Assembly: GCA_947167995.1 (NCBI GenBank)
Contig: CAMVKS010000021.1
Location: 1 to 44,793, forward strand
Source of the DNA: an uncultured Prevotellaceae bacterium
GTDB taxonomy: Bacteria; Bacteroidota; Bacteroidia; Bacteroidales; Muribaculaceae
Direction: 5' to 3'
Length of the DNA stretch: 44,793 nt
Shown: positions 1-12,339 of the stretch, piece after piece
Position numbering within the stretch: the stretch's first letter is position 1
How the letters are laid out: the number at the start of each line of letters is the position of its first letter
Translations under genes and position numbers: made by a program
The notes under the pieces: model-generated
Database searches by the model: none
Told to the model about the DNA's origin: nothing
Seen by the model: only the letters and a program-made list of their open reading frames with translations

Positions 1-100
1 TCATAATATTTTTTATCAAAACAACCTTCAGAGTGCTTTCGCACTTCTTATTGGACCTTTCATTGTTTTGTCTTTTTTTTCTTTTTTCTAAAAATAGTTG

Positions 101-108
101 TATTTTTG
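101..108 (+). promoter_or_regulatory. Probable -7 element of the BspA-like surface gene
   Basis: TATTTTTG matches the Bacteroidota -7 consensus TAnnTTTG. No clear TTTG is found 19-22 bp upstream, so only half of the promoter is convincing. Its position places transcription start near base 115. This rules out the upstream in-frame start at base 33 and supports the ATG at 174. Confidence 0.5.
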
Positions 109-173
109 CGATTATTTGTTTAAATTCGCAATCTAAACAACCAATTACATTACAAACCATAAATCATACAATT

Positions 174-2732
174 ATGAAAAAGATTCTACTATTGCTTGTG
201 GCTCTGTTTGCCACTTCCACCGTTTGGGCTGCGGACTTCATCACCGACGTGATGGTGATTGGTGGCTCGAAAAGCGAGGTGAACAGCCTTAAGACCACTT
301 ACACCAATCAAGGCTGGACGGTCATCGACCAGGACCTGAATGCGGGTTGCGGCTCAGGCAGCGACTACATCTACATGCTCTACAAGACGGGTAGCAACAC
401 CAGCCAAGATGCCGGTGCGTTTATCACCGACTTCTATATCAGCACCGAAAGCGGCACAGTCCCCGACAATGTCATCTACAATGGCCGTACCTATACCATT
501 GTGCCTTGCGATGGTAGCACCTATTTCAAGAACAACAAGGGTGACCTTAACAGCCACTGCGGCTCGGGCAGCGCCTACATCCACCTCTATTACTGCAAGG
601 ATGACAATGTTAATTACAGGTCCAGCGCCGTCACTTCCATCACCTTCAACGACACCCAGAGCGGGGCAATAGGAGAGAGTGGCAGTGACACGGGCTATGA
701 CCTCAACGCCGGTTGCGGCTCGGGCAGTGCCTATATCTACATGCACGCCGCCACCGCCGCAAAGGGTTGGACCGTCAGCACAAACTCCGACAACAGCGAG
801 TGCAACATCACGGGGTATCAAGGCACTAAGACCAACAAGACCTCTATCACCGTACCACTCTATATTGACGGCGCGCAGGTGGCAAACTTCGATGGCCCGG
901 TATTCAGTGGGTTCACCAAACTTGAGACTCTGGCTTTCTATGACAACACCATAGTCAGCCAAATGCCGACGATGCAGGGCTGCTCCATGTTCAAGCATGT
1001 GAAAACCGGCAACACCAACGACAAGACTCCGACTTCGATGACAAGCATCACAGCTTCGGCCTTCGTGGGCACGGTCATCGAAAATATCACGCTCACATCG
1101 GTCACCAGTGTTGGTGCCAATGCGTTTCAGGGATGCGGAACACTGAATAGTGTGATATTTAATAAATCGGGTGTCACGATTGGTGATGGCGCGTTCTCTT
1201 TCATTGTAAAAGCAGGAGGCGCAATGTGCCAAGTCACTTATCCAGGCTCAATTGATGACTGGAACGGCATGATGGTCATGTGCTCGCCAAGCTTGGTTGT
1301 TAATGGCGGAAGCGGCAGCAACACATGGTCTTGCGGTTGGTGCGGCGGAGGTTCCTCAAGCAGCTATAACCGTCTCTTCTGGACGCTCGATGCTGCCGGG
1401 CAGCTGAAAATAGATTGTGCCGACAACAGTTGGTCAAATCATCCCACCGACCAGGTCATTGTTTACCAAAAATGGACTAAAAATCTTGTGAAATCGCTCA
1501 CTTTAGAGCATGTTTACTCTTTAGGAGTGCAGGAATTCACCAATTATGTCAATCTAAAGAATGTGTATATCAACCCCACTTTGCATTCCATAGGCAATAG
1601 CGCTTTCTCAGGTTGTAATACTTTGACAGATATTTGGTTCGACGGCACACAGTCGCAGTGGGCCGCTGTGGAGAAGGGGAGCAGCTGGAAGCCCAGTGCC
1701 ACCAAGGAGCACTGGCGCTGCACCGTGACTTTCAATGCCAACGGACATGGCACCGATCCTGCTTCTCAGACCCTTTGGAGCGACTATGACAAGGCAACAG
1801 AACCTACTCCACCAACTGCCACTTTATACGTCTTCCGCGGCTGGTTCACCGAAGCAGAATGCATCAACCAGTGGGACTTCAACACGGTAGTTCCTGGCGA
1901 TATGACACTTTATGCCAAATGGGACGCACAATACACCTTCGATAGCGAGACTGGCGAATTGAAACTCCTCTGTGGCGAGTTCAACAAGGACAACAAGTGG
2001 GGCAGCGATGTACCACCTATGGAAGTAAAGAGCGTCACCGCCACCAATGAAGTAAGCTTCACCGGCAACTGCTGGCAGCTGTTCTACGATTTCTATTATT
2101 GCGAGAGCATGGATCTTAGCAGGGTAAACACCAGCAATGCTACCAATACGGGCTTTATGTTCCAGTATTGCGCGAACCTTACCTCGCTTGACCTTTCGGG
2201 TTGGAACACTTCCCGTGTCACTGAAATGCGCGGCATGTTCTACAACTGCGGAAGTCTTTCCACGCTCGACATCTCGGACTTTAGCACAGCCAACGTTAAA
2301 GACATGAGATATATGTTCTCTTACTGCTATAACTTGAATACTATCTATGTTGGCCCAGAGTGGAGCACCGTGAACGTCTCCCAATCAGATGACATGTTCC
2401 GTTCCTGCCAGTTACTGAAGGGGGGCATGGGCACTGCCTACGATGAGAACCACATTGACAAGGAATATGCCCGTATCGATGGCGGCGCCGACTGCCCCGG
2501 CTATTTCACCGACAAGAATGCCATGGTGGTGGTGCCTTGCGACGTGGATGGCGATGGATATGTGACAACGGTTGATATCACCGCCATCTACAACTACCTG
2601 CTCAGCAGCGACGAGACCTACATCTCCACCAGCGACGTGGACGGCGACGGCTTCATCACCACAACAGATATCACAGTGATTTATAATATACTGTTAGGAA
2701 GCAAAGGAGGAGTCTCTTCAGAAGACAATTAA
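174..2732 (+). CDS. Secreted BspA-like repeat protein with N-terminal beta-prism-like repeats and C-terminal dockerin
   Basis: An 852-residue secreted protein, probably surface-exposed and binding. The start at 174 is chosen because it begins a clean signal peptide (residues 1-20, MKKILLLLVALF...VWAA); the reading frame is open back to base 33 but that part precedes the promoter. Residues 21-192 hold three copies of a DLNxxCGSGSxYIy motif (about 54-66, 124-136, 176-188), which resembles the three-fold MABP beta-prism. Residues ~205-560 carry irregular BspA-type (LRR_5) repeats. A Listeria-Bacteroides (InlB B) repeat covers ~570-645 (TFNANGHG...GWFTE...LYAKWD). Several 26-residue DUF285-type repeats follow at ~650-795 (MDLSRVNTSN, LDLSGWNTSR, LDISDFSTAN). 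The C-terminus has two dockerin-type calcium loops (DVDGDGYVTTVDI and DVDGDGFITTTDI). No enzyme motif is seen. The domain calls are by eye; adhesion or scaffold binding is an inference. Confidence 0.8.
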   Translation: MKKILLLLVALFATSTVWAADFITDVMVIGGSKSEVNSLKTTYTNQGWTVIDQDLNAGCGSGSDYIYMLYKTGSNTSQDAGAFITDFYISTESGTVPDNVIYNGRTYTIVPCDGSTYFKNNKGDLNSHCGSGSAYIHLYYCKDDNVNYRSSAVTSITFNDTQSGAIGESGSDTGYDLNAGCGSGSAYIYMHAATAAKGWTVSTNSDNSECNITGYQGTKTNKTSITVPLYIDGAQVANFDGPVFSGFTKLETLAFYDNTIVSQMPTMQGCSMFKHVKTGNTNDKTPTSMTSITASAFVGTVIENITLTSVTSVGANAFQGCGTLNSVIFNKSGVTIGDGAFSFIVKAGGAMCQVTYPGSIDDWNGMMVMCSPSLVVNGGSGSNTWSCGWCGGGSSSSYNRLFWTLDAAGQLKIDCADNSWSNHPTDQVIVYQKWTKNLVKSLTLEHVYSLGVQEFTNYVNLKNVYINPTLHSIGNSAFSGCNTLTDIWFDGTQSQWAAVEKGSSWKPSATKEHWRCTVTFNANGHGTDPASQTLWSDYDKATEPTPPTATLYVFRGWFTEAECINQWDFNTVVPGDMTLYAKWDAQYTFDSETGELKLLCGEFNKDNKWGSDVPPMEVKSVTATNEVSFTGNCWQLFYDFYYCESMDLSRVNTSNATNTGFMFQYCANLTSLDLSGWNTSRVTEMRGMFYNCGSLSTLDISDFSTANVKDMRYMFSYCYNLNTIYVGPEWSTVNVSQSDDMFRSCQLLKGGMGTAYDENHIDKEYARIDGGADCPGYFTDKNAMVVVPCDVDGDGYVTTVDITAIYNYLLSSDETYISTSDVDGDGFITTTDITVIYNILLGSKGGVSSEDN

Positions 2733-2815
2733 GGACAAAAGTTTGTTGCACTAGACAGTGTTTTATTAAGGACAATTGCCGCAGGAACCATACTCGTTGG
2801 GAGGTCAAACAAAAA
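2733..2815 (+). repeat. Copy A of an ~80-bp repeat inverted relative to copy B at 9792-9875
   Basis: Starting one base after the surface-protein stop codon, this stretch matches the reverse complement of 9792-9875. The best cores are TAGACAGTGTTTT, TTAAGGACAATTG and CGCAGG, followed by ACCAnACTC and CAAACAAAAA. The match is imperfect, with small indels. Each copy lies in the sense orientation of its neighbouring transcript: a 3' untranslated region here and a 5' leader at copy B. Confidence 0.75.
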
Positions 2816-3025: not shown

Positions 3026-6000
3026 TCATTTGATTATTGCTTTCACTGAACTAGTAGTGCCGTCGGTGTAGCGGGTGACGATGATGTTCATGCCGCTGAA
3101 TGGGCGGTCACTAACTTGTCCAGCCACGTTAACAAACTGGCGGCTCTCGACAGTCTTGCCGTTCTCGACAATAATGCCTTCGATGCCTGTGGCGTTGTCA
3201 ACGTTAATTGTCAGTTTCATATATTGGGTCTTGCCCTTCTGGGTAGCGCCAATAATCATCGCACGACCGCTGTTATTGACCTTGGCATCGATGTTGAGCA
3301 TGCCATCGGCACTAACTGTGATGTCGATGCCCTCGCTCTCGATGTCGAGCAAAGCAGGAACACCAGCGGCAGGAGTAACCTCGCCCAGGTCTTCAAGGAT
3401 ATAGGTCACTGTTGAGCCGTCCTCGTCGAGAGTAAAGAACTCACCGAGGTCGAGGCTCCAGTTGCCAACCTTGTAGGTGCGAGATTCCTCGGCAACAAGG
3501 TCGCGCTCGCAGTTGAAGTCGTCGAGAGCGAAGTAGGCTGCGGTATTCAAACCATACTGACCCTTATCACTGCCATCAAGCAGGAAGCGCACCTTAGCAA
3601 CCTTGCCCAGAGAACGGAGGTCCATCCACTGCCAGGTGTCAAGGATGTAGTGGTCAAGAGCATTGTCGCTGCGATAGTCGGCGAGATAGAAGTCGGTGCG
3701 AGCAGTCTCCTCGTCGTCGGCATCAAATCCCACTGCGGTGAGCTTGAACCACGAACCCTGTGAGAATGCGGTTGCAAAGCCGTCGCCCACTGCCATGCCG
3801 TTGTAGGCATAAGCATTGTTGCTCACATACACACCATTCAAGTTGTCTCCGTCGGTGCTGTTGGTAATCTCGATGAATTGACCCTCGGGGAAGGCAATTG
3901 AGAAGTTGCTCGAGCCGTTGTGGCCCTCGCCCACTACGCTGTGCCACTGGTCATTGAGAGATGCATAGTTGGTTGCAGTCTCGTTACTCAGTGAGTAGCC
4001 ATACCAGTAGTTGTAGCTTGGCATTGCACCGTTGTTGAAGTAGTAAGAACCGCTGTAGAAGCCGTCCTCAACCATCGATGCTGTAGTTGGGTCATAAGCC
4101 CAGTGGCTCTCGTCATCAAGGTAGTTGTCGTCCATCGATGCTGTCACTGCCTCGCCCAGCACGCGCACGCCAGTCTTGGCGGTTACGGTCTGTCCGTCGG
4201 CACTGGTCACCGTGAGACGATAGCCATAAGAATATTCAGGAGTAACATTGAGAGTTGCCTCATTGCCCACTACCTCATTCATCTGGTCGCGCCACTCATA
4301 GGTGTAAGGCTCGTCGCCGCCAGCCACTACAGGAGTGATGATAGCGGTCTCGCCAGCATTGATTGTGGCAGCCACCTTGTTGAGAGTAGCGGTCAATGGC
4401 TCGATGTGGCGCAGAGTGGTGAACTCCTCGGTCTCGACCACGTCGCTCTCCTCGCCAAGTGGGCTCACTACCATGAGGTAAGCCTTGTAGGTGGTGTTTG
4501 GAGTAAGGTCGGTGAGGTTAGTGTTCACCTCGGTATCGGCAGTGATGTCGACGCCCTCGGTCTCCTTGAGTTGGTCGGCAGTCACGCTCTTGAGCATTGG
4601 TGCTCCAGAGGGTTCGTCGCCAACAGTCTCAACCATGTAATAGAGCTTGCCGCCCACGCTCCACTTGCTCTTAACTGTTGCAGTGGTCTCGGTGATGTCG
4701 TTAACGGTTGGGTAACCCTCGGCAATCTCGGGTTTCTCGACTACAACCTCGGCAAACTCGTAAGCACCGATTGTTGGTGTCTCGGCATTGCGCTGCTTGC
4801 CGTCGGCATCGGTGGTGATGAAGTCGACAGGCACACCGGCGTTAAGGTTGCCAGCGCTGAGCAGATGGTTGTCGATGTCGCTCATGAACTCGGCCTGCTC
4901 GGCAATGTTGCCTTGCTTGTTGTTGAGGCCGTTGAGGTCGTCGATAGTTGCTGCATGGTTCTCGAAGAGAGTTCCCGATGCAGCATAAACTGCGTTGTTG
5001 GTCATAATCAACGCCTTGGCGTCGTCGGCGCTGTTGATGTAGGCAAGTTTGCCGTTAGTGGTGAAGTTTTGCAGCAAGTTGTTCTGCATCTTCATTCCAG
5101 TGTAACGGTTGCCGCTGCCGGCAGTGTAGTAAACATAGCCGTTGCTACCACTCACGCGCACTGTGTTGTTGTAGAACGCGATGTTTTTAGAGTCGGCAGT
5201 CACTTGCAGACCAGCAACACTGCTGCTTGAGGCGTTGGTGATAACAATACTGTTGTTGTAAACAAGGATAGGATTATCAGCGCTTTGGCCCTCACAACCC
5301 TGACGCATGTAGATACCCTGCGAGTAGTAGGTGTGAGTGTGGGTAATCACGTTGTTGCGAACTATCATACTACCAGAGTTGCGGTAGATGTCCATCGAGT
5401 TGTAGCCAGTAGCGGTTGATGTGCTCTGGCTGATGTTGTTGTTCTCGATAAGGGCGTTGGCAACGTCGGTGATATAGATACCCTTGCTGCGAGGCTCAGA
5501 TATCTTGTTATTGGTAATTACATAGTCGAGTGCGTCGGGCACAGCAACTGGACCAGGACCAGTGAGGCCCATTGCGATGTAGCCACCATAGAATTCATTG
5601 CCATCGATGGTGAGGTAGTCATTGTTCATGCCACCCTTGTCTTCCAGAGTGCCCACATTCTCGGTCTTGAACAAGTTCATGCCGCTGTAACCGCTGGTCA
5701 CGAGCTCAGCCTTGAGGTAAGAGTCCTTGAGGGTGAAGTGGCGGCTCTGGTTATAGATGTGGATGGCGTAAGGATAAGACTGGCTCTGTGGGATGAAGCT
5801 CATGCTCTCGAAGCTCACCCAAGGAGTGGTCTCAACAAATACCATACCCTTCTTGAGCTCGCCATAGGCTGGAGCGCTGTAACCGCCACCGGTGATAATC
5901 ACCTTGCTGCGGTCACCACTCTTGCTCACGAAGGTAACGGTGTTCTGCTCGCTTGTGCCACGCACCTTGCTGATGACGATGTTCTCGGCATAAGTGCCGT

Positions 6001-9000
6001 CCTCAACCTCGAAACGTACTGCGCCCTCCACGCCATTGGCCATGGCAGCGGTAGCGGCAGCAAATGTTGGGAAGTCGGCATCGGCGCTTGAACCAATCAC
6101 GTAGGTGCCCTTGATACCAGCAACCACCTCGCGCTCGGCGTTTGTGCCAGTTACCTCAATCACGTTTTCGCCTTGAGCAACCTCAAGCACTTGTGCGTCG
6201 AGTTTGTTGCCAGTGACAGCATCGTCAGCAACGTCGTAGGTGAGCCACAGATAGTAGTCACCGTTGTCGCTGATTTCGATTGGAGTGTCGAGAGTCAAAA
6301 CGTTCTCGCCATCGGCAACTGTGGTGAGCGATGCCACTGGATTAGCGTCGCTGAAGTTGGCAGTGTGGTTGGTGTAATAGAGCTTAGCAGCAGTGATGTC
6401 GCTCACGCTTGTGGTACCAGCTGTCGTGAACTTCACACTGTTGATGGTGATAGGCTCCTTGTCGCCGCTCACGGTGACTTTGAGCTGTTGCATCAGCGCG
6501 TCACTCATGCTGCGGTTCACGTCTTCGCTAGTGGCAGTAGCCTCAACGCTCTCGATAGTAAATGGAGTCTTCTCGTGCAGTGAAACTGCGATAGCCCATC
6601 CGTCGAGGGTTGTAGCTGTAGAGTTGCCCTTATAGTAAACGGTGAGAGAGCCATCCTCGGCCTTGCTCACAAGGTTGGCAGGACCTGTAGTGGTCGAGTA
6701 CTTGTTGAGCAGGTTGTCGTCGTTGACCTCCTGACCGTTGTAAACGTACATGTTGCCTGAGCCAATCGAGAATGTGCCTTGAGTGTTAAGTTCAACAGCG
6801 CTGTTCTCACGGCCAGGAATGAAGGTGACGGTGCCTGTAAAGCCCTTGCTGACTTTGCCGTCGGGACCTCCGTCGTCGTAGAACATAAGAGGATTGTTGA
6901 CAACAATCACGTTGTTGCCTTCCTCAAGCAGATAGATGTACTTAACCACGCGCACGCCTTCGGGATCACCATTCTCAACAGTGGTGACAGTGCCGGCGGC
7001 ATCGGTGATTGAGAGGAGCTTGGCGTCGACTTGAGCCTCGGCCTCGGCGTCGGCTTTTACGTCAACGGTTACCCAGAAGTAGTTCTTGCCCTCGGTGAGC
7101 TCACGCTCGCCAGCGATAGAAACCTCGCTTTGTGCAGGATTCTCAACGTTGCCAAACTCTATTGCAGTAGCAAAGTCGTTGGTGTTGTTGTAGAATACGC
7201 TAACCTTGTTTACAGCAGCCTCATTGCCCTTGAGGTCAAGAGCGACGTTGTTGATAGTGGCGGTGCTGAGAGTGCCCTCGGTCTCGACTACGAAGTCGAT
7301 GAGCTGGGCATTGCTGGCGCCAGGAGCGAGCACGTCGGTGCTGGTCTGGTTAACTGTCACTCCGCTAACTGTCATGTCATGGTTCTGGAAGGGCTGCACG
7401 GTGGCGGTCCAACCGGTGCCGGCATAGTAGCTGCTCGTTGTCTTAGGATTGAAGCGGATGGTGAGTGAACCATCGGCGCTCTGAGAACGGAGCACGGTGC
7501 CAGGACCAGTTGAGCTCTGGCTTGCGTCTTGCAGGCTCCACAACAGGTTGGCGTTATTGATTTCGGTGCCACTGTAAATCTCATAGACGGCTTTGGTGCC
7601 GTAGCTTGAGTTTGAGTAGTATACGTCAAACGCCGAGAAGTCGATTTGTGCCACGGTGCCTGCCTCAGCAGGGGTGAAGGTGACAATGTAGTCGGCATCT
7701 ACGGTCTCATACTTGCCGCTGTAGCCCTCGGTGTTGGTGAATGTCCAAGGACCACTGATGACGTGGCTGTGCGAGCCTTGAGTGGCACGGCACACGTTGT
7801 TGACGGTGCGGGTTGCACTAACTGCAGTCTCGGGAGCCTGGGTGGTCTCGCCCACAAGCACATTGTCGAGCGACAGAGTGATTTGCTCACCATTCTGTGC
7901 GTTGTCGTTGAGGTCGAGCACTACAGCCACATAGTTATGCCCCTCGATGAGTTCCTTTTCGCCAGTGATAGCGATGCTGGTGCCAGTAACATCCACCTCA
8001 CCAAATGGATTGGTAGTTGCGAACTCGTTCTTCTTACCTAAATAATAAGCGCGTGCGCGCGCGATGTTCTTTGCATCGGCAGCAGTGAGATTGATACCCT
8101 TGAGGCTTAATGGATTGGCTGTGTTGTCGGTTTGAACGTCTATCACAAGCATTTGTGCGTTGGTGTCGCCAGCGGCAACGGTTGCGGTCGACGCTGCCTC
8201 GCCGGTAACCCCAGCAAGAGTCATGTCGCCTGGCAGGAACTGGCTAACCAGTGCCTCCCAACCGCTCTTGGGATAACCTGCTGTGCTCTTGAGGTAGACG
8301 GTGATAGAACCGTCGTCGGCAGTAGATTTCACGATTTCGGGCTCATCGAGTAGGGTAGTGATGAGGTTCTCCTCGTTAACCTCTCGGCCGTTGTAGAACT
8401 TGAACACGTCGTTGTAGCCAACGGTCGAAGTGTTGAACAGGTCGAGTTTCGAGAAGTCAATCTTGATAGCATTGCCCTCGGTAGCAGGAACAAAGGTGAT
8501 TTGTCCTTCAAAGCCTTGAGTGATATTGCCATCCTTGCCGCCGTCGTCATAGAAGTTGTAGGGCACGTCGCCCACAGTGATGACTTGTGGAGTGGTGGAG
8601 ATGAGCGCGATAGCAGGTTTTGCCACTTCCACTGGAGTGCCAGCGGTGAAAGGAGTCACGCCACTGGGCATGCCTGTGGTGGCAATCTTGGTAATCTCAA
8701 TTGCAGCCTTTGCGCCAGGAACAGCCTCGCCCAGGAACTCACCAGCAATCGAGAACTTGTTGATGCCCTCGGCCAGTGGTTGGTTCAGGGTGAAAGTGTA
8801 GCCGTCGCCATCGGCAGCCACTGTGGCATCGAGTGCTGTAGCGCTCTTGAACGAAGGCTGCGAGCCTGCATAGAGGCGCAACTGCGTTGGGTCGATAGCG
8901 TCCTCATTGGTTGTAGCCTTGAACGAGATGCCAGTCACATTGTCTGCATTCATCACGCCGGTGGTGGTAACCTCGGCGGTAGCGAAATTGATTGCCTCGG

Positions 9001-9604
9001 TGGCGGTGGTTGATGCAGTTACGTTCTCGTAGTTGCTCGAAGCACCAGTCACAGTCATGTCTTCGAGGGTGATACACTTAACTGTGCCCTTCCAGCCGTC
9101 ACAGGCTTCGGCATAACGGTAAAGATAACCCACAGAGATGATTCCCGAGGCATCGGTGGCAGTGTAGGTCTTGTTTTCATAAGTGCCGTCGAGCTTCTCA
9201 AGCACATTGCCCTTGGGTAGTGTGGAGCTTGCGGTCACGCCACTTGTTGATGTAGCATAGCTGAACGAGCCATCGGGATCGGGGTCGCCAGCATACACGT
9301 TCACGTAAGCAGGCCACGATGCACCGTCGTTGCGCACGTCAAGTCTCTCGAAGGTAAGCTGGATTGCTTTTCCCTCGGCAGGCTTGAACACGGTGAGCGA
9401 CTGCGAGTTGTTGCTGCTCGAAGACGAGATTCCCTGATAACCATTCATGTCGTAGAAGGTTATCACCTCATCGGCAGCAACCTCGATGGTCTGCTTACCA
9501 AATTGCAGCTGATTGACAGTGCGGTCGGCACGCGCAGGCAGTGCCATTGCGGCGATAGCAACAATCAGCGCAAAAGTCTTGGAAAGTAAACTTAGTTGCT
9601 TCAT
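3026..9604 (-). CDS. Giant secreted surface protein: alternating CUB-like and BNR-associated-like modules, beta-helix, DUF4465
   Basis: A 2192-residue secreted protein with a signal peptide at 1-26 (ends ALPARA). Four CUB-like modules (about 35-185, 340-460, 612-740, 895-1010; recurring FYDDGGxDG and GSLTVY motifs) alternate with four modules resembling the BNR-associated N-terminal domain (about 190-330, 462-600, 742-880, 1015-1160; recurring RELTEGKNYFWV). Residues ~1168-1610 look like a right-handed parallel beta-helix with many N-N-x-I turns. Fibronectin-III-like (~1625-1730) and PKD/Ig-like (~1735-1825) segments follow, then DUF4465 (~1835-2040; contains SYYFNNG and YFALDDF). The C-terminus (GMNIIVTRYTDGTT...KAIIK) resembles a type 9 secretion sorting tail and closely matches the end of the 34555-37518 product. 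Beta-helix folds occur in polysaccharide lyases and adhesins; no catalytic residues could be assigned. The nearest upstream promoter found is the one driving the cobalamin riboswitch. Confidence 0.8.
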   Translation of the reverse strand: MKQLSLLSKTFALIVAIAAMALPARADRTVNQLQFGKQTIEVAADEVITFYDMNGYQGISSSSSNNSQSLTVFKPAEGKAIQLTFERLDVRNDGASWPAYVNVYAGDPDPDGSFSYATSTSGVTASSTLPKGNVLEKLDGTYENKTYTATDASGIISVGYLYRYAEACDGWKGTVKCITLEDMTVTGASSNYENVTASTTATEAINFATAEVTTTGVMNADNVTGISFKATTNEDAIDPTQLRLYAGSQPSFKSATALDATVAADGDGYTFTLNQPLAEGINKFSIAGEFLGEAVPGAKAAIEITKIATTGMPSGVTPFTAGTPVEVAKPAIALISTTPQVITVGDVPYNFYDDGGKDGNITQGFEGQITFVPATEGNAIKIDFSKLDLFNTSTVGYNDVFKFYNGREVNEENLITTLLDEPEIVKSTADDGSITVYLKSTAGYPKSGWEALVSQFLPGDMTLAGVTGEAASTATVAAGDTNAQMLVIDVQTDNTANPLSLKGINLTAADAKNIARARAYYLGKKNEFATTNPFGEVDVTGTSIAITGEKELIEGHNYVAVVLDLNDNAQNGEQITLSLDNVLVGETTQAPETAVSATRTVNNVCRATQGSHSHVISGPWTFTNTEGYSGKYETVDADYIVTFTPAEAGTVAQIDFSAFDVYYSNSSYGTKAVYEIYSGTEINNANLLWSLQDASQSSTGPGTVLRSQSADGSLTIRFNPKTTSSYYAGTGWTATVQPFQNHDMTVSGVTVNQTSTDVLAPGASNAQLIDFVVETEGTLSTATINNVALDLKGNEAAVNKVSVFYNNTNDFATAIEFGNVENPAQSEVSIAGERELTEGKNYFWVTVDVKADAEAEAQVDAKLLSITDAAGTVTTVENGDPEGVRVVKYIYLLEEGNNVIVVNNPLMFYDDGGPDGKVSKGFTGTVTFIPGRENSAVELNTQGTFSIGSGNMYVYNGQEVNDDNLLNKYSTTTGPANLVSKAEDGSLTVYYKGNSTATTLDGWAIAVSLHEKTPFTIESVEATATSEDVNRSMSDALMQQLKVTVSGDKEPITINSVKFTTAGTTSVSDITAAKLYYTNHTANFSDANPVASLTTVADGENVLTLDTPIEISDNGDYYLWLTYDVADDAVTGNKLDAQVLEVAQGENVIEVTGTNAEREVVAGIKGTYVIGSSADADFPTFAAATAAMANGVEGAVRFEVEDGTYAENIVISKVRGTSEQNTVTFVSKSGDRSKVIITGGGYSAPAYGELKKGMVFVETTPWVSFESMSFIPQSQSYPYAIHIYNQSRHFTLKDSYLKAELVTSGYSGMNLFKTENVGTLEDKGGMNNDYLTIDGNEFYGGYIAMGLTGPGPVAVPDALDYVITNNKISEPRSKGIYITDVANALIENNNISQSTSTATGYNSMDIYRNSGSMIVRNNVITHTHTYYSQGIYMRQGCEGQSADNPILVYNNSIVITNASSSSVAGLQVTADSKNIAFYNNTVRVSGSNGYVYYTAGSGNRYTGMKMQNNLLQNFTTNGKLAYINSADDAKALIMTNNAVYAASGTLFENHAATIDDLNGLNNKQGNIAEQAEFMSDIDNHLLSAGNLNAGVPVDFITTDADGKQRNAETPTIGAYEFAEVVVEKPEIAEGYPTVNDITETTATVKSKWSVGGKLYYMVETVGDEPSGAPMLKSVTADQLKETEGVDITADTEVNTNLTDLTPNTTYKAYLMVVSPLGEESDVVETEEFTTLRHIEPLTATLNKVAATINAGETAIITPVVAGGDEPYTYEWRDQMNEVVGNEATLNVTPEYSYGYRLTVTSADGQTVTAKTGVRVLGEAVTASMDDNYLDDESHWAYDPTTASMVEDGFYSGSYYFNNGAMPSYNYWYGYSLSNETATNYASLNDQWHSVVGEGHNGSSNFSIAFPEGQFIEITNSTDGDNLNGVYVSNNAYAYNGMAVGDGFATAFSQGSWFKLTAVGFDADDEETARTDFYLADYRSDNALDHYILDTWQWMDLRSLGKVAKVRFLLDGSDKGQYGLNTAAYFALDDFNCERDLVAEESRTYKVGNWSLDLGEFFTLDEDGSTVTYILEDLGEVTPAAGVPALLDIESEGIDITVSADGMLNIDAKVNNSGRAMIIGATQKGKTQYMKLTINVDNATGIEGIIVENGKTVESRQFVNVAGQVSDRPFSGMNIIVTRYTDGTTSSVKAIIK

Positions 9605-9791
9605 AGTTAATTAATTATGTTAATAAAAACGTCATTTCACTCTACCCTCGGTGAAACGACGAAACAACATGAAGCAAGGTGGAGTGCCCTGACGGGCAGA
9701 AATCCTCCAAATCTGAAACAAATCAAACAAATTCAACAAATTAAAACAAATCCAACAAAGAATTATTTTGTTGTTCTTGTCAGGCTTTGTT
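9605..9791. other. Leader region with A/T-rich degenerate 9-10-bp repeats and small hairpins, no gene
   Basis: No plausible coding frame on either strand. Bases ~9717-9765 are a run of degenerate AAACAAATC-like units, followed by TTTTGTTGTT-like units that are partly complementary. Nearer the giant gene there are short hairpins such as TTTCAC / GTGAAA (about 9644-9663) and the GCCC / GGGC pair around 9690-9700. On the - strand this would be the 5' leader of the giant gene. Confidence 0.6.
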
Positions 9792-9875
9792 GTTTTTGTT
9801 TGTCCCACAGTGAGTGTGGTGCCTGCGCCAATTGTCCTTAAACAAAACACTGTCTAATGCCAAATAATTTTGTCA
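9792..9875 (-). repeat. Copy B of the ~80-bp repeat (inverted to copy A at 2733-2815)
   Basis: Read on the - strand it contains TAGACAGTGTTTT, TTTAAGGACAATTG, GCGCAGG and ACCACACTC, aligning with copy A through its whole length with a few substitutions and one- or two-base indels. Unlike copy A it keeps a small CCACA / TGTGG hairpin. It sits between the cobalamin riboswitch and the giant surface-protein gene. Confidence 0.75.
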
Positions 9876-9953
9876 TTAGTTGTCTTTTAAAAACAGCGTA
9901 AACCTGCAATGTGTTCCTGCCCTAATTCCACGAGAGCACGAAAAGTTTTTAAC

Positions 9954-10163
9954 GATAACGAGGCAGGTCTTCTGGCTCATTCCCATCGCTCGCCTTGGGG
10001 CCTTCCCACAAGCCTTAGGCTTGCAGTGGCCGAGATTTCAGGAAAAATCGGCAAGCGACAATTGTGAGGGAAAATACAGCAGCGGGTTCTGCCCAGGATT
10101 CTCACCTGTGTTCCCTTTTCAGCCAGCAGTGGAGCGGGTGCTCATGCTGGCCACCACATTATC
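9954..10163 (-). promoter_or_regulatory. Cobalamin (adenosylcobalamin-type) riboswitch
   Basis: Read on the - strand this has the hallmark order of the cobalamin riboswitch: AAAAGGGAACACAGGTGAGAA, then AATCCTGGGCAGAACCCGC, then CTGCTGTA, later GCCACTG, GGGAAGGC, and the 3' B12-box GAGCCAGAAGACCTGCC. A closing P1 helix is visible: GATAATG at the 5' end (10163-10157) pairs with CGTTATC at the 3' end (9960-9954). In Bacteroidota such switches normally repress btuB-type transport or cobalamin-synthesis genes. Here the next sense gene is the giant surface protein, starting 349 bases further on, and no cobalamin gene is seen in the window. Any regulation of that gene is an inference. Confidence 0.92.
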
Positions 10164-10169
10164 ACGGTG

Positions 10170-10201
10170 CAAAGGTAGTGCTTTTTTAGGTCTAAGACAA
10201 A
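10170..10201 (-). promoter_or_regulatory. Promoter of the cobalamin riboswitch transcript
   Basis: On the - strand: TTTG (10201-10198), 20-bp spacer, TACCTTTG (10177-10170). This is a full match to the Bacteroidota sigma-ABfr consensus. Expected transcription start falls at about 10163-10165, exactly at the first base of the riboswitch P1 helix. Confidence 0.82.
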
Positions 10202-10221: not shown

Positions 10222-10263
10222 ATAATAAAAAATCGGACAAAAGAAATTGTCTCTTTTATCCGA
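10222..10263 (-). terminator. Rho-independent terminator of the cstA/barrel-protein operon
   Basis: On the - strand TCGGATAAAAGA pairs with TCTTTTGTCCGA (one U-G wobble) and is followed by a TTTTTT run. Its arm TCGGACAAAAgAA recurs in the duplicated terminator at 19726-19831. It separates the upstream operon from the riboswitch promoter. Confidence 0.8.
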
Positions 10264-10288
10264 CTGATGTCAAATGAGATGTGATGTA

Positions 10289-10903
10289 TTAAAAACGGAA
10301 TCTCACACCGCCATGTATTAGTCCTTGCTCTCCGAAACCAAGTTCGGCAAATCCACGAACATTGCGGTTTCCTGCTTCGGCTCCTATGAGAGAAACCTGG
10401 AAGTTGAAGAAGTCGTTTCCACTGGAGTCTTTGCTGTAGTTTCCATCGGCATCTTTGCCTGTTGTCGAGTAGTTGGCATGAGTGTAGCCAGCTCCGAGCT
10501 TGGAATATAGTCCCCAGTTTTGTTTCCTAAGCCAATTGAATTTCACCGCCGGCATTATGGTGAAGTAGTTGGATGTGCGCTTGCCAGTAATTTGTTCGCC
10601 TTGCACGACATCTTCTTTGTGATGGTTGTAAACCCCTATACCGCCAACACCAATCAATGGCGTGACATGGTAAAAATACTCGGCACTGAAAGGTCCTACG
10701 AACTTGGAGTTCTTATATCGTGCCCCAAACATGGCACCCACCACCTCGGAAAAAACATCGAGGCAATTGCTTGAGTTTATGGCACCATAAGCTAACGCTA
10801 ATTCATTCTTAGGCTCATCGTTGGGGTCAAAGTCTTGAGCCTGCAGGGTTTGTGTTGTGCAAAAAATTAATGCAGCAACAACAATTAAGAAATTTTTTAG
10901 CAT
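10289..10903 (-). CDS. Outer-membrane beta-barrel protein (porin-like, small)
   Basis: A 204-residue protein starting at the ATG at 10903, chosen because it opens a good signal peptide (MLKNFLIVVAALIFCTTQTLQAQ); the frame is open further upstream but that part overlaps the preceding gene. The body alternates short aromatic/glycine-rich strands (FTIMPAVKFNWL, GLYSKLGAGYTHANY, GFAELGFGEQG) and ends GGVRFRF, with the terminal Phe typical of outer-membrane barrels. It resembles small 8-stranded barrel proteins of Bacteroidota; the ligand is unknown. The start is 5 bases after the stop of the CstA-like gene, so the two are almost certainly co-transcribed and may act together at the envelope. A strong terminator follows. 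Confidence 0.75.
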   Translation of the reverse strand: MLKNFLIVVAALIFCTTQTLQAQDFDPNDEPKNELALAYGAINSSNCLDVFSEVVGAMFGARYKNSKFVGPFSAEYFYHVTPLIGVGGIGVYNHHKEDVVQGEQITGKRTSNYFTIMPAVKFNWLRKQNWGLYSKLGAGYTHANYSTTGKDADGNYSKDSSGNDFFNFQVSLIGAEAGNRNVRGFAELGFGEQGLIHGGVRFRF

Positions 10904-10908
10904 AGTGG

Positions 10909-12339
10909 TCAAATAATTTGTTGAACAATAAAAGTAAGGCTCACTGCAGTCATGAAAATTGCTGGTATGAGAGTGACCCAGTAGCATTTTTTCTTTCTAT
11001 AGAGGTAGATGGTAATAGTCCACAGGGTAAACACCGAGAGTGTCTGGTTGGCCCATCCAAAATATTGCCACAGGGCATTGAAGCCGTTGGGCGAAGCCAG
11101 TTGCCAGATGAGAAGCATCAACACTGCTGCAAACATGGGCACAGCTATCATCAGTCGCTTGATAATGGGCTTTTGGTCAAATTTCAAGAAATCGGCAATG
11201 ATTAGGCGCGCGCTGCGCAATGCAGTGTCTCCACTGGTGATGGGAGCCGCAACCACACCAAGCATAGCCAGTATGCCACCCGCCACGCCAAGCCAGCTAC
11301 TGCACACGAGTTTCACCACAGCTGGAGCGTTAAAGTATTGAATGAGTGTCTTGCCGTCGGTATTGCCCACTTGATTCAGAAACTCGTTGACAGCATCGGG
11401 AGGCAGCACTTGTTTCCAACCGGCACTATAGAAGAACCACGATGAAACCGCTGCCCAAACGAGAGCCACAAATCCCTCGGTAATCATCGAGCCGTAGAAC
11501 ACTGGACGCCCTAACTTCTCGCTCTTGAGGCATCGTGCCATGAGAGGACTTTGAGTGGCATGGAAGCCACTGATTGCACCACAAGCGATGGTGATGAACA
11601 TTGCGGGGAAGATTGTATTGGCTTTGAGATATTCCTTCATGCCAAGCAGGTCATGCCCGTTGTCGACTTGCGAGGTCATCCATGAGTCCATGTTGCCTAT
11701 GTTCCACACCTCAGGAATGTGAGGCATCTTGATGAGCAGGCACACAAACAGACCTATCGCCATGAATATCAGCGCAATGGCAAATACTGGATAAATCTTG
11801 CCTATAATCTTATCGATGGGTAGTAGGGTGGCAATGATGTAATAAATGAATATTACAACAAACCACATTATCTCATTTCCTCCAATTCCGGCAAGTATCG
11901 AGGCCGGACTGTAAACAAACACCGCGCCCACCATCAACAGCAGCAACATCGAGAACACCAGCATGATAATCTTAATGGTGTTGCCCATGTACTTGCCCAC
12001 AAGCTCGGGCAGACCAGCGCCATCGTGGCGCAGTGACAGCATGCCGCTGAGGTAGTCGTGAACCGAGCCGGCAAAGATGCATCCTATCACAATCCACAAG
12101 AAGCTCGCCGGACCAAACCACGCACCCATGATGGCACCAAAGATGGGGCCCGTGCCGGCAATGTTGAGAAACTGGATCATAAACACCTTCCACGTGGGCA
12201 TGGCTATGTAGTCAACTCCGTCGGGATGGACGAGGGCAGGGGTCTTGCGGTCGTCGGGGCCGAAAATGCGTTCTATCACGCGACCATATATCAGATAGCC
12301 CAAGACAAGGGCTGCGATGCTTATTAAGAAAGAAATCAT
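10909..12339 (-). CDS. cstA: CstA family carbon-starvation protein, short form (inner-membrane transporter)
   Basis: A 476-residue, strongly hydrophobic protein with about a dozen membrane segments. The N-terminal block (FGPDDRKTPA, GVDYIAMPTW, FLNIAGTGPIFGAIMGA, GSVHDYLSGM, LRHDGAGLPELVG) is characteristic of CstA/BtsT, a family of peptide or pyruvate uptake systems induced on carbon starvation. Enterobacterial CstA is about 700 residues, so this is a short version; the ending looks natural rather than frameshifted. The start is set at the ATG at 12339, because an upstream in-frame TTG (12369) lies inside the -7 element. It is the first gene of a two-gene operon with the barrel protein. Substrate is not deducible from sequence alone. 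Confidence 0.85.
   Translation of the reverse strand: MISFLISIAALVLGYLIYGRVIERIFGPDDRKTPALVHPDGVDYIAMPTWKVFMIQFLNIAGTGPIFGAIMGAWFGPASFLWIVIGCIFAGSVHDYLSGMLSLRHDGAGLPELVGKYMGNTIKIIMLVFSMLLLLMVGAVFVYSPASILAGIGGNEIMWFVVIFIYYIIATLLPIDKIIGKIYPVFAIALIFMAIGLFVCLLIKMPHIPEVWNIGNMDSWMTSQVDNGHDLLGMKEYLKANTIFPAMFITIACGAISGFHATQSPLMARCLKSEKLGRPVFYGSMITEGFVALVWAAVSSWFFYSAGWKQVLPPDAVNEFLNQVGNTDGKTLIQYFNAPAVVKLVCSSWLGVAGGILAMLGVVAAPITSGDTALRSARLIIADFLKFDQKPIIKRLMIAVPMFAAVLMLLIWQLASPNGFNALWQYFGWANQTLSVFTLWTITIYLYRKKKCYWVTLIPAIFMTAVSLTFIVQQII

Follow-up and report, generated by a model that had tools for sequence, protein, structure and literature searches.

The gene behind the cobalamin riboswitch on this contig probably encodes a giant, secreted, B12-capturing protein and is repressed by B12, a reading to which we give a probability of about 0.8. 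The window, the whole stretch of DNA analysed (44,793 nucleotides), is an entire contig (C21) of genome G000 (2.93 Mb, 96% complete). Sequence comparison establishes that a complete riboswitch with its own promoter stands directly before an open reading frame with a DUF4465 domain, and that the arrangement is conserved in the genus and outside it. The riboswitch, the promoter before it, the 2192-residue giant as the next minus-strand gene and a repeat copy in the leader had all been recognised in a first-pass annotation of the window and hold (Table 1). Its further statement, that no B12 gene stands behind the switch, falls: the puzzle dissolves because the giant itself carries a DUF4465 domain. 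Most likely, the cell makes this large protein at low B12 to catch the vitamin.

Table 1. Features of the window discussed in the text
Feature	Position	Strand	Basis
Giant protein, 2192 aa: CUB-like, BNR_assoc_N, beta-helix, DUF4465, C-terminal tail	3026..9604	-	ORF and Pfam
C-terminal tail, aa about 2130-2192, T9SS-like	3029..3217	-	by eye
DUF4465 domain, aa 1863-2030	3515..4018	-	Pfam, PDB matches, model
Right-handed beta-helix block, aa 1150-1640, type A of two	4685..6157	-	Pfam, model, comparison
Terminator-like stem-loop (CGTCGTTTCAC/GTGAAATGACG, 9661-9630) and T run (9629-9622)	9622..9661	-	sequence, folding
Dispersed repeat in leader, probable insertion	9790..9895	-	missing in several close relatives
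P13-L13 hairpin, loop CGUGG at 9932-9928	9918..9938	-	sequence and covariation
Cobalamin riboswitch aptamer (RF00174)	9945..10173	-	covariance-model match
Aptamer loop L5, CCCG, proposed kissing partner of L13	10083..10086	-	sequence and motif comparison
Bacteroidetes-type promoter TTTG-N20-TACCTTTG	10170..10201	-	reading of sequence
Terminator-like hairpin 3' of upstream gene	10231..10265	-	sequence

The riboswitch and the DUF4465 protein behind it

The aptamer gives a full-length match to RF00174 (model positions 1-189; 96.3 bits, gathering threshold 31.5 bits; E 6.8e-23; cmscan of Infernal over the window). The boxes of its promoter, TTTG at 10198-10201 and TACCTTTG at 10170-10177 with a spacer of 20 nt, were called by the Bacteroidetes promoter consensus. 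In 62 of the 67 genus riboswitches a TAnnTTTG box stands by the start, compared with 0.6% of 45-nt windows drawn at random from the same loci, and the two-box pattern is complete (spacer 17-22) in 17 of the 67. The gene upstream of the riboswitch (10289-10987, minus strand) is closed by a terminator-like hairpin.

In the giant, Pfam finds DUF4465 (PF14717) at 175.1 bits against a cut-off of 25 (E 2.3e-51), three stretches of BNR_assoc_N, a weak CUB match (22.8 bits) and a beta-helix match just under the cut-off (25.3 versus 25.9 bits). Against the PDB, the DUF4465 part has matches to six distinct sequences, including BtuJ1 (9fct, 9qpm), BtuJ2 (9i2l) and the B12-bound 9hmu. Its AlphaFold model (mean pLDDT 91.5) has the augmented jelly-roll fold of the DUF4465 family, and a fold comparison with the PDB gave nine matches at E <= 0.001, every one a DUF4465 protein, with 9hmu at the top (TM 0.80). 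Excerpts of two papers (PMC13398666, PMC12751083) report that eight distantly related DUF4465 proteins bind B12 and that HI-loop Tyr245 and DE-helix Tyr146 of BtuJ1 are B12 contacts. Tyr2024 and Tyr1932 of the giant align with these two. The model was made from an alignment of 41 giants, namely the window's, the 39 complete ones described below and L149, which has an intact domain stretch and is kept outside the 39 by a reading frame broken in the assembly. Tyr2024 and Asp2028 are kept in 41/41 and Thr2021 in 37/41, and the DE-helix position 1932 holds Y in 33, the window among them, W in 7 and V in 1. The window's domain appears to be of BtuJ type, a family reported to bind B12, and we predict binding here as well.

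BtuJ1 and BtuJ2 of Bacteroides thetaiotaomicron (BT_1491 and BT_1957; DUF4465/IPR027828) share with the giant the fold, the tyrosines of HI-loop and DE-helix and riboswitch control, and several of the giant's relatives likewise have a neighbourhood of B12-uptake genes. In that species, according to excerpts of PMC12751083, riboswitch-controlled operons are repressed by B12, and structures of BtuJ have been solved. The BtuJ proteins are lipoproteins of about 250-300 residues in crystals, whereas the 2192-residue giant has, by eye, a signal peptide and no cysteine near its N-terminus, for which reason we file it as a DUF4465 protein rather than a BtuJ. It also adds CUB-like, BNR_assoc_N and beta-helix parts, and in most cases its gene comes first after a riboswitch of its own. 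The closest solved structure, D5EK51 of Coraliomargarita akajimensis (9hmu; 34% identity over the alignment), is a 26.9-kDa protein from another clade. Our verdict, on these comparisons, is that the giant appears to be a modular variant of a known riboswitch-controlled DUF4465 protein.

DUF4465 is described as a B12-binding domain in two papers of 2025 and 2026 (PMC12751083, PMC13398666), whose excerpts give small sizes for its members. In the literature searched, mainly titles and the openings of abstracts, we came across no account of a DUF4465 protein of giant size under riboswitch control. Here the domain sits in a protein of ~2,200 residues whose riboswitch is kept across Muribaculaceae, Prevotellaceae and beyond, and because the switch is kept across families, very large extracellular proteins may be involved in the competition for B12 in rumen and gut. 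For Xylanibacter ruminicola KHP1, an excerpt of an RNA-seq study with B12 (PMC11575231) places many of the most strongly changed genes near its four cobalamin riboswitches. A B12 riboswitch likewise precedes a gene of uncertain function at ppe2 of Mycobacterium tuberculosis (PMC11260477, in excerpt), whose protein family and host are unrelated to the giant's. The case also illustrates that a gene's function can be suggested by a riboswitch seemingly without a relevant gene.

Linkage of riboswitch and giant across genomes

A profile search with an alignment of eight giants yielded 58 named loci, the closest of them in Muribaculaceae, Prevotellaceae, Porphyromonadaceae or Bacteroidales MAGs, many from ruminants. 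The giant of G004, from the window's genus, is 46% identical to that of the window. With open-ended loci and L149 excluded, there remain 39 complete giants in named Bacteroidales genomes, each with a DUF4465 match. A cobalamin riboswitch lies within 520 nt upstream in 32 of the 39 and farther upstream on the same strand in five (L155, L171, L168, L184 and L188). Infernal, run over all 39 loci (33 directly, the other six through the same contigs in genus genomes), gives RF00174 matches in 37 and finds no riboswitch in the available flanks of L182 and L185, both Porphyromonas. These two Porphyromonas giants keep DUF4465.

Of the five more distant switches, three are separated from the giant by genes of uptake type: L168 has a periplasmic binding protein there, L188 a TonB receptor and DUF5074, and the contig of L171 in G012 shows the order riboswitch-TonB receptor-DUF5074-c1-giant. 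In L184 the intervening gene, of 352 aa, gives no Pfam match. The giant of G016 precedes a second run, riboswitch-DUF4465-c1-btuB-like. At 35% protein identity the arrangement is still kept in Prevotella pectinovora and Xylanibacter muris. As a control we took partial homologues without DUF4465 that share the CUB/BNR or the beta-helix part (L191-L201), and these gave 0/11 RF00174 matches. Because 37 of 39 giants have the switch and none of the 11 DUF4465-less homologues does, we conclude from the sequences compared that the riboswitch travels with DUF4465 giants and that the linkage is old. The comparison supports one of the two explanations offered in the first pass, namely B12 control of a surface protein.

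Among the 25 genus genomes searched we found 67 riboswitches; the filters were stricter in this search, and weak riboswitches may be missed. The first gene behind the switch is a btuB-like TonB receptor (cluster c9) in 22 cases, a member of a second receptor-like cluster (c26, assigned by eye) in 10, a member of the surface-protein cluster c1, which includes Dockerin and DUF5074 proteins, in 13, a giant in 8 (one cut by a contig end), a smaller DUF4465 protein in 5 and another gene in 7; the remaining two riboswitches run into a contig end with no next gene. G000 itself has, elsewhere, a B12-receptor-like TonB gene with its own riboswitch. A BtuR/CobO adenosyltransferase comes first behind the switch at L127 (G020:C12; by Pfam), L088 (G002:C163) and L104 (G009:C25; both by cluster), and a membrane transporter-like protein at L120 (G018:C20; by eye) and L097 (G006:C17; by cluster). 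The locus of one relative also has an Rfam match to FopS, a Bacteroidetes small RNA family (L161:3211-3279, plus strand).

The leader and its mode of control

The ATG of the giant lies 340 nt past the end of the Rfam match, whereas the 22 btuB-like genes of the genus begin 4-40 nt after the aptamer. This long leader looks like an expression platform. With a terminator-like stem-loop before the ATG, it looks, as had been argued at first pass, unlike simple blocking of the ribosome site.

Directly 3' of the aptamer stands a hairpin, P13, with a CGnGG loop. In cobalamin riboswitches L5 is UCCCG and has L13 as its kissing partner, according to excerpts of PMC10653944, which guided our placement of L5 at CCCG. 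This was a second try: the GGUGxxAAUCC loop had been taken for L5 and was rejected when no covariation with L13 was found there. In the window, CCCG and CGUGG are complementary in sequence and would form 4 bp if U9930 bulges out. Across 40 giants L5 is CCCG in 39 and L13 is CGnGG or CGGG in 36, one of which (L178) was scored CGGG where a CGUGG hairpin is likelier; a recognisable L13 is missing from the leaders of four. The P13 stem is paired in 160/160 cells, with 34 double changes, in 32 chosen distinct hairpins, a percentage flattered by a register that was picked by pairing and equal loop length. Its covariation score is 0.655, versus 0.306 in shuffles. The 32 come from 39 distinct hairpin strings, of which seven that lack a stem or differ in loop length were left out; the 39 also drew on ten short c26 leaders, from which one resulting string was dropped.

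The two loops were also compared over 97 riboswitches, five of whose rows are mis-anchored. Where L5 is CCCG, the leader has CGnGG in 53/59. With L5 CGG the leader has CCG[TG] in 17/17 and CGnGG in 0/17, with ACCAC(G) it has CGGG in 5/5, with CCUG it has CAGG in 7/10 and CGnGG in 1/10, and with ACCG it has CGGU in 1/1. These tallies are motif counts over the first 75 nt of leaders of related sequences, with no formal statistic, and the background of such short motifs in the 59 CCCG leaders is CAGG 19, CCG[TG] 16 and CGGT 8. This count takes in six riboswitches of the genus that the box pattern had missed and that are left out of the strict terminator scan described below. Operons of the genus differ in L5 with a matching leader motif (CCCG/CGnGG, CGG/CCG, CCUG/CAGG, ACCAC(G)/CGGG), and in most btuB-like cases complementary bases are swapped between aptamer and leader, on motif counts.

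Before the start codon, a stem of 11 bp is followed by a T run (TTTTTATT, 9661-9622) that stops 17 nt 5' of the ATG, and similar hairpins occur in the leaders of close relatives. For 38 of the 40 giant leaders, two shorter than 150 nt being left out, the strongest local fold within the final 95 nt was compared with shuffles. Five or fewer of 100 shuffles match it in 24 of the 38 (mean z -2.47), and among 22 other long leaders the same holds for 4 (mean z -1.16); the window's own fold has z -2.04 (4/100 shuffles), and 14 of the 38 show no significant fold by this test. A strict scan, which asked for a T run immediately 3' of a stem close to the ATG, was positive in only a minority of the 40 giant leaders. 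RNAalifold gave a weak consensus for the last 80 nt of 18 leaders (-1.45 kcal/mol; six pairs, four with a double change). A candidate antiterminator, GGAACA/UGUUUC, has 6 bp in the window, with a duplex energy reached by 21/200 shuffles. Among 33 giants tested, two were at <=10/200 shuffles, and most pairings were no better than shuffled flanks; we keep this one as a guess.

Together, P13/L13 and the stem-loop with U-run before the ATG suggest B12-dependent transcription attenuation, which we infer on mixed evidence. The termination step in particular is tentative, since only a minority of leaders passed the strict scan. With ample B12, the aptamer would bind it, L5 (CCCG) would kiss L13 (CGUGG) and P13 would be held closed, and the stem-loop with its U-run just before the ATG would then end transcription. 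When B12 is scarce, P13 would open, GGAACA on its 3' flank might base-pair with the UGUUUC at the terminator's foot, and transcription would run on into the gene. The product, probably exported by type IX secretion, would reach the cell surface, where DUF4465 on a long multidomain arm would capture B12 for uptake of the BtuB/BtuG type. A repressing transcriptional riboswitch, that of P. megaterium metE, is described in excerpts of PMC10653944 and shares with this one the L5 CCCG, an L13 with CG-GG, P13, a terminator and a possible antiterminator on the 3' side of P13. The giant's L13 differs from that model by one extra base (CGnGG) and its leader is 340 nt long; here the device is predicted from sequence.

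The beta-helix block, secretion and alternative readings

The beta-helix block is modelled as a right-handed beta-helix with pLDDT 91. Its nearest folds are GH136 lacto-N-biosidases and PL6 lyases (TM <= 0.58), which make a glycan target plausible. Over aa 1201-1551, 13 close sequences fall into two types, A (n=8, 83-99% identical) and B (n=5, 70-90%), with 44-50% identity between the types; aa 301-501 and 1701-1951 of the same 13 sequences are without this split. Between L154 and G000, DNA identity is 92-98% per 100-codon step over aa 1001-1700 and 69-85% outside it, but 90-91% in two bordering steps. Because identity is high over this stretch and lower elsewhere, we read the beta-helix shared by L154 and G000 as a recent exchange. 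On this sequence pattern, types A and B are exchanged among species and the giant is a mosaic protein. An exchangeable beta-helix beside a conserved vitamin-binding domain makes its ligand and the reason for its variation testable.

The C-terminal tail of the window's giant gives no Pfam T9SS match at 0.001. In the giants of five relatives, Por_Secre_tail passes the cut-off in L182 and L188, falls short of it in L184 and is not found in L179 and G015. SprA of the T9SS is encoded in G000. The same genome encodes, side by side, two proteins of methylmalonyl-CoA mutase, a B12 enzyme, and a search for CbiC (corrin-ring making) found none in this 96% complete assembly. Because the mutase is present and CbiC absent, the organism is a B12 user that probably has to import corrinoids.

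The main rival to transcription attenuation is control of translation, in which the leader would hide the ribosome-landing region by pairing UUGUGUU-type bases with AACAUAA around the stem-loop. We regard this as a real possibility, if the less probable mode: several predicted folds show an outer pairing round the hairpin and the AT-rich start region, 14 leaders have no significant fold before the ATG, and the L5-L13 device is also found in translational cobalamin switches, according to excerpts of PMC10653944. On the other side, the 11-bp stem followed by TTTTTATT, with its counterparts in close relatives, fits a terminator, and the btuB-like genes of the genus, so close behind their aptamers, look more translational and differ from the giant.

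Two further alternatives concern the protein. The giant might be mainly an adhesin or glycan binder that B12 merely regulates, with a DUF4465 domain that no longer binds the vitamin. CUB-like, BNR_assoc_N and beta-helix parts do make up most of it, and the beta-helix resembles carbohydrate-active folds; conservation of the DUF4465 contact residues in all or nearly all of the 41 giants, and a switch that accompanies giants with the domain and not partial homologues lacking it, make this reading unlikely. Least credible, and contradicted by the comparison, is a chance neighbourhood, the other explanation offered at first pass, in which loss of a transport gene left an orphan riboswitch and the giant came to lie behind it. 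The repeat copy in the leader would fit such a history, yet the riboswitch is directly upstream in 32 of 39 giants, including those of P. pectinovora and X. muris, relatives without the repeat keep the order, and the B12-receptor-like TonB gene of G000 has a riboswitch of its own. B12 capture by a B12-repressed giant remains our preferred reading. As a tentative and rather speculative extension, the Bacteroidales giant may be a "B12 trap" in which a conserved B12-capturing domain is combined with an exchangeable beta-helix targeting cassette, the two discrete types being swapped by recombination; B12 starvation would then bring out a surface arm that holds a glycan or a neighbour and harvests B12 there.

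The leader repeat matches 2717-2814 (plus strand) at 80% and 74%, the copy there being also delimited as 2722-2815. It is ~100 nt long and intergenic, with five matches in G000, itself included, and is common to G000 and L145. L144, L148 and L160 are without it, and the distance from B12 box to ATG is ~220 nt there versus ~360 nt; for these reasons the repeat is probably a later insertion. The first-pass annotation had proposed looking at which gene follows the switch in close relatives, and these three keep the arrangement, which rules out that the repeat joined gene and switch. Three of the five repeat matches are clustered near a contig end (G000 contig C83:8074-8371). The gene at 33-2732 (plus strand) is convergent with the giant and has a copy of the leader repeat behind it; it encodes a surface protein with BspA-type leucine-rich repeats, a Listeria-Bacteroides repeat and a dockerin.
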